Below, in pieces: positions 9,136-11,013 of a DNA stretch of 64,000 nucleotides. The notes under the pieces are model-generated. The model saw nothing but the letters and a program-made list of their open reading frames with translations, had not been told where the DNA came from and did no database searches. A program made the position numbers and the translations under genes. The stretch comes from Hymenobacter radiodurans (GTDB lineage: Bacteria; Bacteroidota; Bacteroidia; Cytophagales; Hymenobacteraceae). Position 1 is the first letter of the stretch. Each line of letters starts with the position of its first letter. The stretch lies in NCBI RefSeq assembly GCF_004355185.1, contig NZ_CP037922.1:558001-622000 (forward strand). The letters run 5' to 3'.

Positions 9136-10521
9136 CTAGACTTCCAGTACTACGGGATGCTCGATGGCTGGCTCCGGGATTGTATCACCTTCGGTTTGCT
9201 GACGCTGGGGGGCTTTTTCCGCTACCGCGTCGAAGGCATTTTGCAAGTCAGCTTTGATGTCTTCTATATGCTCCAGTCCAAGCGAAATGCGCAGCAAGGT
9301 GGGCGTCACGCCGGCTGCTATTTGCTCCTGATCAGAAAGCTGCTGGTGCGTAGTGGCGGCGGGCTGAATAATCAACGTTTTCGCATCGCCCACATTAGCC
9401 AAATGGCTCACCAGCTTTAGGTTGTCGATGAAGTGCGTGGCCGTATCCTTGGTGCCTTTAATGCTGAAAGTCAGAACGCCACCCGCGCCGCGCTTCAGAT
9501 ATTTCTGGGCTAGAGCGTTATAGCGGCTGCTTTTCAAACCCGGATAGTTTACGGCTTCTACCTGCTGATGCTGCTCTAGCCATTCGGCCAGCTTTTGCGC
9601 ATTTTCCACCGTCCGATCTACGCGCAACGACAGAGTTTCAAGACCTTGCAGCAGCAGGAAAGAGTTGAAAGGACTGATGGCCGGACCAAAATCGCGCAGG
9701 CCTTCTACCCGCGCCCGAATGATAAAGGCGATGTTGCCAAATGGGCCGCCTTTGCCGAACACATCATTGAAAACCAGGCCGTGATAGCCTTCCGAGGGCT
9801 CCGTAAACTGCGGAAACTTGCCATTGCCGAAGTCATACTTACCGCCGTCGACAATCACGCCGCCTATGCTGGTGCCGTGGCCGCCAATCCATTTCGTGGC
9901 CGATTCTACTACGATGTGCGCGCCGTGCTCTAGGGGGCGAAACAGGTAGCCGCCCGCGCCAAACGTGTTATCGACAATAAGCGGCAGATCGTGTTTGTCA
10001 GCAATGGCCGCAATACGCTCAAAATCGGGAATACTGAAGCTGGGGTTGCCAATCGTTTCGAGATACAGCGCCTTAGTCTTGTCGTCGATCAGGGCCTCGA
10101 AGCTTTCAGGCGTGTCGCCATCGGCAAAGCGGGCTTCGATACCTAAGCGCTTGAAAGCGACCTTAAATTGGTTGTAAGTGCCACCGTAGAGGTGCTGGGT
10201 ACTTACAAAGTTGTCGCCGGCCTGCAAAATGTTGTTCAGGGCCAGAAATTGGGCTGCTTGCCCCGAGCTGGTTGCCAATGCGGCCACACCACCTTCCAGC
10301 GCCGCTACGCGTTGCTCAAATACATCGGTGGTAGGGTTCATGAGGCGCGTATAAATGTTGCCGAACTCCTTGAGGGCAAACAAATTGGCACCATGCTCCG
10401 CGTTCTTAAACACGTAAGAAGTAGTCTGATGGATAGGAACGGCGCGCGAACCAGTAGTAGGATCGGGTTGCTGACCAGCGTGCAATTGCAGGGTTTCGAA
10501 GTGCAGGTTTTGTGTGGACAT
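9136..10521 (-). CDS. metY: O-acetylhomoserine aminocarboxypropyltransferase (sulfhydrylase)
   Basis: PLP enzyme joining O-acetylhomoserine with sulfide (or methanethiol) to give homocysteine (or methionine), using the MetX product. Cys/Met-metabolism PLP family marks: QTTSYVF, the phosphate-binding [10 protein letters not shown], the Asp of [10 protein letters not shown], and the Schiff-base lysine in [13 protein letters not shown]. The start is set at ATG 10521 ([10 protein letters not shown]), giving 461 residues, the usual size for long sulfhydrylases; the upstream open stretch belongs to the regulatory leader. Expression is probably controlled by the SAM-I riboswitch and Cys-rich leader ORF upstream. 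Confidence 0.95.
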
Positions 10522-10736
10522 CTTAGTGCTGATTAGAGTTAGAGTGAAGTAGAAAGAGATGACAGAGCGCAGATAATCAGGCATATGGAACCGCAGGAAG
10601 GTGGAGCGCTGAACGTGATCCACAGCCGAAGCAGACGAAGCCAGACTAAGACCTAACGTGGTGGGGTAGAATGCCCACGGCGCAACACGGCCTTTAGGAA
10701 TGATGGAAAGGGGAGGGGGCTAAACCGGAAACTGGA

Positions 10737-10889
10737 TTAGCAGCAGCACGCGCAACAACAGCACATTCGCGTAGCCTCACAACTGCTAATGGCAGGGGCC
10801 AAAACGCGGAAACCCGCCAACCAACCAATGCGCAACGATGCGACCGGGGCAGACGGGTGAAGCAAAATGGAAAAAGCAGTGTTTTTCAT
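10737..10889 (-). CDS. Cys-codon-rich 50-residue leader peptide of metY
   Basis: A 50-codon ORF beginning 8 bases after the riboswitch 3' strand and ending 215 bases before metY. Its last 14 codons encode CEATRMCCCCACCC: seven of the last eight residues are Cys, plus one Cys six residues earlier. Such a terminal run of one amino acid is the hallmark of leader peptides whose translation senses the charged tRNA, here tRNA-Cys. Cysteine competes with, or supplies sulfur to, the MetY pathway, so a cysteine sensor makes sense. No classical terminator/antiterminator pair with a U-run is evident downstream; a stem CCTTT/AAAGG lies nearby. Peptide function and mechanism are inferred; homologues in related genomes would settle it. 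Confidence 0.6.
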   Translation of the reverse strand: MKNTAFSILLHPSAPVASLRIGWLAGFRVLAPAISSCEATRMCCCCACCC

Positions 10890-10896
10890 GGCACTC

Positions 10897-11013
10897 AGCT
10901 TATATCTCCCGCGGGCAACATAGCCGAACGGGCAGGAATTGGCACCTTTCAAAACAATGAAGGTTGCCAGCGGGTCAGGGAGCCTGTTCTCTCGCCGCTT
11001 CTGTATAAAATCT
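10897..11013 (-). promoter_or_regulatory. SAM-I (S-box) riboswitch aptamer upstream of metY
   Basis: On the - strand the order of conserved blocks follows the S-box: P1 5' strand TTTTATA, AGAAGCGG, GAGAGA kink-turn side, the short CAGG/CCTG stem, TGACCCGCT, GGCAACC junction, the P3 stem CCTTC/GAAAGG, GGTGCCAATTCC in J3/4, and the returning GAGATATAAG that closes P1 with TTTTATA. I aligned this by eye to the family consensus; the match to GGCAACC and GGTGC-AATTCC is diagnostic. The expected role is to lower metY expression when S-adenosylmethionine is high. The next coding start (leader ORF) is only 8 bases past P1, so P1 could occlude its initiation. Confidence 0.8.

Follow-up and report, generated by a model that had tools for sequence, protein, structure and literature searches.

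The metY leader of Hymenobacter radiodurans raises the question of whether a riboswitch and a leader peptide can work together as one switch. Riboswitches and leader-peptide attenuators are usually described apart. In the window (the whole 64,000-nt stretch of DNA that was analysed), a canonical SAM-I aptamer appears to gate the translation of a leader peptide ending in cysteine codons, which would join metabolite sensing and tRNA-charge sensing in one RNA.

Parts of the metY leader

All parts of the leader lie on the minus strand. The regulated gene, metY, encodes an O-acetylhomoserine sulfhydrylase (9136..10521; TIGR01326, 677 bits against a cut-off of 495; PF01053) and is followed by a metX-like homoserine O-acetyltransferase gene (7839..8867; PF00561), whose top NCBIfam matches are MetX models at 344.5 and 321.9 bits, under their cut-offs of 500 and 331. 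The two genes likely share an operon. A promoter candidate, TTTG-N19-TACATTTG, is located 5' of the aptamer by pattern match (11059..11089) and agrees with the Bacteroidota-type consensus. The pattern used, TTTG-N17-21-TAnnTTYG, was sought upstream of the aptamer and is found in 46 of 74 metY relatives in addition to the window, against a mean of 0.3 and a maximum of 2 of 74 in single-base shuffles and none on the reverse strand. Further upstream, a strong hairpin with A and T runs flanking both sides is seen at 11131-11179, between a LysM-like ORF (11199-11498, named by eye) and the metY promoter. As this hairpin separates the two, metY is probably its own unit.

The aptamer occupies 10897..11011 in the leader of these methionine/sulfur genes, and its binding of SAM is predicted. 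RF00162 matches at 11011..10897 with the full model (70.6 bits, gathering score 44.4, E 1.7e-14) and is the sole Rfam match at gathering score within the 64-kb window, which bears out the original prediction of a SAM-I aptamer in the metY leader. With covariance model R1, whose 26 training aptamers include the window's own, the score is 101 bits. The 3' strand of P1, ATATAAG, ends at the spacer GAGTGCC (10890..10896), behind which the leader ORF runs from the ATG at 10889 to the TAA at 10737 (10737..10889) and encodes the peptide MKNTAFSILLHPSAPVASLRIGWLAGFRVLAPAISSCEATRMCCCCACCC. Its length had been given as 50 codons, which is right, and its distance from the aptamer as 8 bases, where we measure 7 nt. 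The ATG is assigned by its conserved position, since no stop codon closes the frame upstream, where it runs on through the aptamer; an equivalent ORF is found in 72 of 74 aptamer-bearing metY relatives.

The leader ORF ends in ...CEATRMCCCCACCC. Its last eight codons, CCCCACCC, stand directly before the stop (10740..10763), and seven of them are Cys codons, just as first counted. The Cys-tailed frame behind the aptamer is real and far beyond chance: counted over the final 12 codons, it holds 7 Cys, and the runner-up among all 1875 stop-to-stop frames (20 codons or longer, both strands of the window) holds 5. A small hairpin, GCUAA...UUUAGC, surrounds the stop codon (10719..10741), and a C-rich, G-poor stretch 3' of the stop (10696..10719) is a candidate Rho loading site. 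From the stop to the metY ATG (10521) we measure the same 215 nt as the original prediction, which had also noted that no classical intrinsic terminator is evident; none is apparent when these 215 nt are read. The leader has the codon run of an attenuator and shows no intrinsic terminator before the gene.

The same genome has five SAM-I aptamers. Four are followed by a short ATG- or GTG-started ORF with clustered Cys codons, which starts 7-9 nt behind the aptamer. These four loci are metY, an ATP-grasp gene (L003), an amino acid permease (L005), and L001, in which the Cys cluster lies slightly before the ORF end and the longest downstream ORF starts about 490 nt further. The fifth aptamer precedes metH and has no Cys-clustered ORF behind it. 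A genome-wide count of Cys runs is uninformative (135 matches, and 40 with the pattern reversed), as Leu CTG runs in other frames probably give TGCTGC repeats as well. By eye, the P4 helix is nearly absent in some SAM-I aptamers of the genus (L001, L003, L015, and L023; CCTGACCATATAAAAACAA), all of which have GTG-started Cys leaders.

Aptamer and leader ORF among relatives

SAM-I aptamers are present in all 120 genomes searched of the genus, in 119 of the 120 drawn from the family, and in 147 of the 194 drawn from the order. The named metY loci are the best 80 of at least 569 confirmed relatives from one scan with the window's MetY protein as query, so chosen by similarity to it, and counts on them ignore phylogenetic kinship. 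They belong mostly to Cytophagales and Sphingobacteriales (Hymenobacter, Adhaeribacter, Pontibacter, Mucilaginibacter, Pedobacter, Chryseolinea, Algoriphagus, and others). The aptamer is found in 74 of the 80, in 68 by regular expression and in 6 by R1; neither search finds it in L174, L191 (covered for 342 nt upstream only), L192, L211, L212, and L213. We scored a tail where an ATG or GTG ORF starts at most 18 nt from the P1 3' reference point and has 3 or more Cys among its final 12 codons. The Cys-ending ORF sought in related metY leaders is in the same place in 72 of the 74, including those of Pontibacter, Pedobacter, Mucilaginibacter, and Chryseolinea, the exceptions being L205 (Algoriphagus) and L217 (Cognataquiflexum). 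When the sequence behind the start codon was shuffled with dinucleotides kept, a tail arose in 19 of 1360 trials for 68 metY loci (66 of 68 observed) and in 21 of 2020 trials for loci not named metY (72 of 140 observed), a test that slightly favours the observed value by taking the best of all starts in the stretch against one start per shuffle.

All 214 rows, repeats included (L004 and L090 are both the window; L075 equals L084), contain 144 with a tail, whose ORFs have 27-63 codons and encode 132 distinct peptides. L060, at a contig end, was omitted, L074 was set by hand, and L001 and L100 are scored as tail-less by the rule though Cys clusters exist there. Eighteen of the 151 rows of the same P1 type fail the rule, in a list affected by the P1 type A/B label, which was set by regular expression and wrongly called several Hymenobacter leaders B; the Cys-leader counts are independent of this label. 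Among the 18 are L205 and L217, L001 and L100 with their Cys clusters, L081 and L109 with two Cys each, L103, which looks mislabelled, and the repeated L075/L084. Most of the remaining tail-less rows of this type keep the ORF start, and something else, or nothing, may be read there. The same aptamer type and ORF start before metY, with the Cys tail absent, are seen in L205, L217, L069, L071, L075, L080, L086, and L094. In other families of the phylum, 20 stretches from 14 families (one or two each) contain a leader of such kind only in L255 (family f26) and L270 (family f23), and the pair of aptamer and leader is therefore not general in the phylum.

The composition of the tail bears on which amino acid is read. 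In the last 14 residues of the 144 leaders, Cys makes up 42.3% versus 1.5% in the body, an enrichment partly built in because the set was selected by its Cys tail. Met makes up 11.3% versus 1.1%, which selection did not build in and which the original prediction does not mention. In L255, the SAM-I aptamer is followed by a Met-rich, Cys-poor leader ending MCSPSMRMRMPMSCFSYMCA and then by a metY-like gene, perhaps a methionine version of the leader. Together with the general Met enrichment, this tail suggests that Met supply may count too. The leader might thus sense Met and Cys jointly, or mainly the general supply of sulfur amino acids, rather than Cys alone, an alternative that we take seriously but consider somewhat improbable, as Cys is the final codon in 109 of the 144 leaders and the tails of L047 and L050 have Cys without Met. 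The coding constraint looked for in the leader ORF is present but mild, with a pN/pS of 0.64 in the body and 0.56 in the tail (21 pairs of distinct ORFs). The leader body diverges freely, as expected from known leader peptides in which frame and tail matter.

We then inspected the genes behind the aptamers of rows L001-L141. The Cys-tailed set stands before metY in 63 rows, each at least 74.9% identical to the window MetY, and also before cysH (L015 and L018; in a third, L100, the ATG is further out), metX (L067), ATP-grasp genes (L003, L023, L047, and L050), an APC permease (L005), and an NhaC-type transporter (L053). The ATP-grasp-like gene, which occurs in two genera and has no clear family, is possibly a sulfur-metabolite ligase. 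Tail-less aptamers stand before the metH cluster (19 of 19 without a Cys tail, one member named by HMM), homoserine dehydrogenase (4), cysteine-synthase-like genes (7), metK (L082), and cystathionine gamma-synthase-like genes and other relatives with less than 60% identity to MetY (17). Of the 76 rows in which the gene behind the aptamer shares 60% identity or more with the window MetY, 13 also lack the tail. Sulfur-entry genes tend to carry both inputs, with clear exceptions. As all seven cysteine-synthase-like loci have the aptamer and a terminator-like hairpin without a Cys leader, there is no tidy rule for which genes get both. In some relatives a further gene is seen between the Cys leader and metY, of AhpC/TSA type (L163 by Pfam; L168) or OsmC type (L182 by Pfam; L189 and L218), with L168, L189, and L218 named by eye.

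The two modules also occur apart. Close behind the aptamer, a terminator-like hairpin with a T run is found in 32 of 70 tail-less loci, most commonly TCTTCTGACTTGTCGGAAGGGC-T7, and a terminator-like site in only 9 of the 144 leaders with aptamer and Cys ORF; a laxer rule finds one in 18 of 132 distinct leaders (13 of 60 in Hymenobacter and 5 of 72 elsewhere). Conversely, a terminator behind a Cys leader is clear only in three metY leaders without a detected aptamer (L174, labelled Chitinophagales, and L191 and L212, labelled only Bacteroidota or Bacteroidetes). These encode a Cys leader peptide such as MKINYAKLNPGTFGNAVCCMCCC..., have a long GC-rich hairpin with a T run behind it, and look like a textbook Cys attenuator. 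Aptamer and Cys leader each exist apart, and their union is unlikely to be an accident.

Proposed SAM and cysteine inputs

The position of the leader start speaks to the SAM input. The start codon lies directly behind P1, within the stretch covered by a ribosome at initiation. Measured from the P1 3' reference point, the ORF start lies between -2 and +13 nt in 72 relatives and between +6 and +11 in 66 of them. An anti-P1 partner downstream shows no excess in 133 Cys-leader loci (5.42 versus 5.34 bp in shuffled sequence, p 0.85). It is in excess (5.90 versus 5.38 bp, p 0.002) in 30 loci of the other P1 type, a group affected by the same A/B label, most of which have terminator-like hairpins. 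In family f27, a MetX gene starts at +11 from P1 in L259, where a 12-codon ORF also starts at +4, and a long gene with no NCBIfam match starts at +9 in L263; here the same P1-to-start geometry appears to control initiation of the gene directly. The fixed spacing, the lack of an anti-P1 partner, and these two loci favour a direct block of initiation by P1. They fit the original proposal that SAM controls initiation of the leader ORF, for which they are good but indirect evidence. The aptamer might instead act on mRNA stability or Rho access, independently of the Cys leader, the two adding up rather than working in series. The separate occurrence of the modules and the additive tandem attenuators described in the accessible text on mgtCBR (PMC3641672) are in keeping with this arrangement, but the closeness of the start codon to the P1 3' reference point (at most 13 nt in all 72 leaders) and the lack of an anti-P1 partner behind it make it unlikely.

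RNA structure around the Cys run differs between groups. Outside Hymenobacter, the Cys region pairs with post-stop sequence above chance (6.38 versus 5.63 bp, p 4e-4, 72 leaders), and a control with body segments gives p 0.53 over all 132 leaders. In the 60 Hymenobacter leaders, the Cys region has no pairing excess with the post-stop region (5.48 versus 5.37, p 0.25), and the window's own genus therefore seems to be without a classical attenuator fold. Cyclobacteriaceae-type leaders place UGUUGU opposite GCAACA. Two-sided changes are found in 3 of the 12 predicted pairs of this fold, located in the hairpins behind, and in none of its six Cys-codon pairs; in the Pedobacter-type fold they occur in 5 of 23 pairs, chiefly in the last hairpin. 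These fold groups were picked by eye and comprise 12 of 16 Cyclobacteriaceae-type and 5 of 6 Pedobacter-type leaders. A second conserved hairpin is seen in Cyclobacteriaceae-type leaders about 35-75 nt after the leader stop and before metY (L193, L200, L208, L186, L179, L190, L189, L182, L195, L218, and L177), with a loop like AAGUGACA and a stem like UGCC/GGYA, compensated in places. An Rfam search of six relatives found no known family for the hairpins behind the Cys run (L193, L200, and L179 for the second hairpin).

The UGUUGU/GCAACA pairing and the helix excess outside Hymenobacter would agree with a simpler account, in which metY is under the control of the aptamer only and the Cys-ending ORF is incidental, its UGY repeats being kept as RNA pairing partners and not as codons. 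We consider this account very improbable. In 72 of 74 leaders the run shares its frame with a start at a near-fixed distance, pairing shows no excess in Hymenobacter, and Cys leaders with a terminator also exist without a detected aptamer. Both Cys codons are used (TGT 501 times and TGC 341 times in 133 distinct ORFs), and over the 21 pairs 115 Cys codons are unchanged, 9 are swapped between TGC and TGT, and 17 are lost. The presence of OsmC-type or AhpC/TSA-type genes between leader and metY in some relatives could also hint at a Cys-rich nascent peptide that itself arrests the ribosome as a thiol, metal, or redox sensor, but this is barely credible, as tail order and spacing vary, the Cys residues at the last codons would still be near the peptidyl transferase centre, and the target genes mostly serve sulfur assimilation.

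In place of pairing by the Cys region, Hymenobacter leaders have a small hairpin around the stop codon, similar by eye in many of them; in 60 of these leaders the fold from stop-6 to +32 has a mean z of -1.29 (only -0.40 and -0.28 in wider windows), and the stop codon is fully paired in 58%. Over the 60 nt 3' of the stop, C outnumbers G in 96% of 70 Hymenobacter leaders and in 57% of 640 metY coding windows; outside Hymenobacter the shares are 74% of 74 leaders and 45% of metY coding windows. The C excess is weak evidence for Rho, because the leader body is likewise richer in C than in G. Rho has been proposed for Cys-run leaders in Actinobacteria, according to the accessible text of PMC1262725, and by analogy it is a reasonable guess for the output step here.

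The architecture, a riboswitch followed by a Cys leader ORF, is real and conserved, which we state with high confidence. It is likely that it works as a two-input leader, with the SAM-I aptamer directly ahead of a Cys (and Met)-tailed ORF controlling metY. With SAM bound, P1 would close beside the start codon, the 30S subunit could not load, and the leader ORF would stay untranslated; with SAM low, the ORF would be translated. When Cys-tRNA, and perhaps Met-tRNA, is short, the ribosome would stall on the run and metY would be expressed; when Cys-tRNA is plentiful, the ribosome would finish and leave, and metY expression would drop. In the weakest step, the C-rich leader, untranslated or vacated, would be open to Rho or fold into hairpins that reduce expression, and a stalled ribosome would prevent either. 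An untranslated attenuator leader would be the off state, which fits the sign of both inputs, and metY would therefore be on when SAM and Cys are both low. We place moderate confidence in this series logic of SAM and then Cys. The evidence leans toward a series-wired logic gate in which the riboswitch targets the start codon of the leader peptide, so that SAM decides if the Cys (and Met) signal is read; such a gate would be widespread in Cytophagales and Sphingobacteriales, with either module alone in relatives, and would stand mostly over sulfur-entry genes. This two-input reading predicts AND-type control by SAM and Cys.

Comparison with known systems

In the Salmonella mgtA and mgtCBR leaders, to our knowledge, no metabolite aptamer sits at the start codon of a peptide ORF, and work by Zhao in 2011, going by its title, reportedly concerns Mg2+ and leader peptide translation at a riboswitch. 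In logic, these two leaders are the nearest to the present one, as the accessible part of PMC3641672 describes a small-molecule signal and a Pro-codon leader peptide in one leader; they differ from it in signals, genes, and structure. The same text presents metE of B. clausii, also a methionine gene that responds to two signals including SAM, with tandem SAM and B12 riboswitches and two terminator sites, and names no leader peptide in the part available (PMC3641672). The SAM-II leader of metA in Sinorhizobium likewise joins a SAM riboswitch to an earlier start codon ahead of the true one, but AUG1 and AUG2 are in frame for metA, a terminator lies between them, and the accessible portion describes no Cys peptide (PMC9373788).

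Among Cys leaders, the actinobacterial cys/cbs leaders (PMC1262725) and the mycobacterial polycysteine ORFs (Canestrari 2020) likewise have a short ORF, Cys codons near the stop, and no clear terminator, with Rho proposed, as far as the accessible texts go. Those texts mention no riboswitch, and the mycobacterial ORFs are leaderless, whereas the ORF here follows an aptamer of about 115 nt. By promoter prediction, too, it is not a leaderless ORF: in each of the 25 promoter matches covered, of 46, the distance from the end of the match down to the P1 3' reference point is 116-168 nt. The uORFC-8-2 before cysS in Rhodobacterales is likewise a leader ORF with Cys codons inside a stem, and differs in having two Cys codons, an intrinsic terminator, and, in the part of the source available, no riboswitch (PMC8632094). 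Further related cases are found, in partial view, in PMC9031893, PMC13236596, and PMC2211319. Among the matches listed from the open-access literature, with subscription papers and preprints largely outside the scope, none describes the combination of a SAM riboswitch and a Cys leader peptide; the original prediction likewise knew of none in this group.

The SAM-I (S-box) family, RF00162, is alike in its aptamer and in its position in the 5' leader before methionine genes. In those leaders the expression platform is a terminator or the gene's own start; here it appears to be the Cys-tailed leader ORF, and the same genus also has terminator-like forms. The combination of aptamer and Cys leader is conserved across two orders and recurs within one genome ahead of several genes, and the two-input reading would add an expression platform for SAM-I in Bacteroidota.
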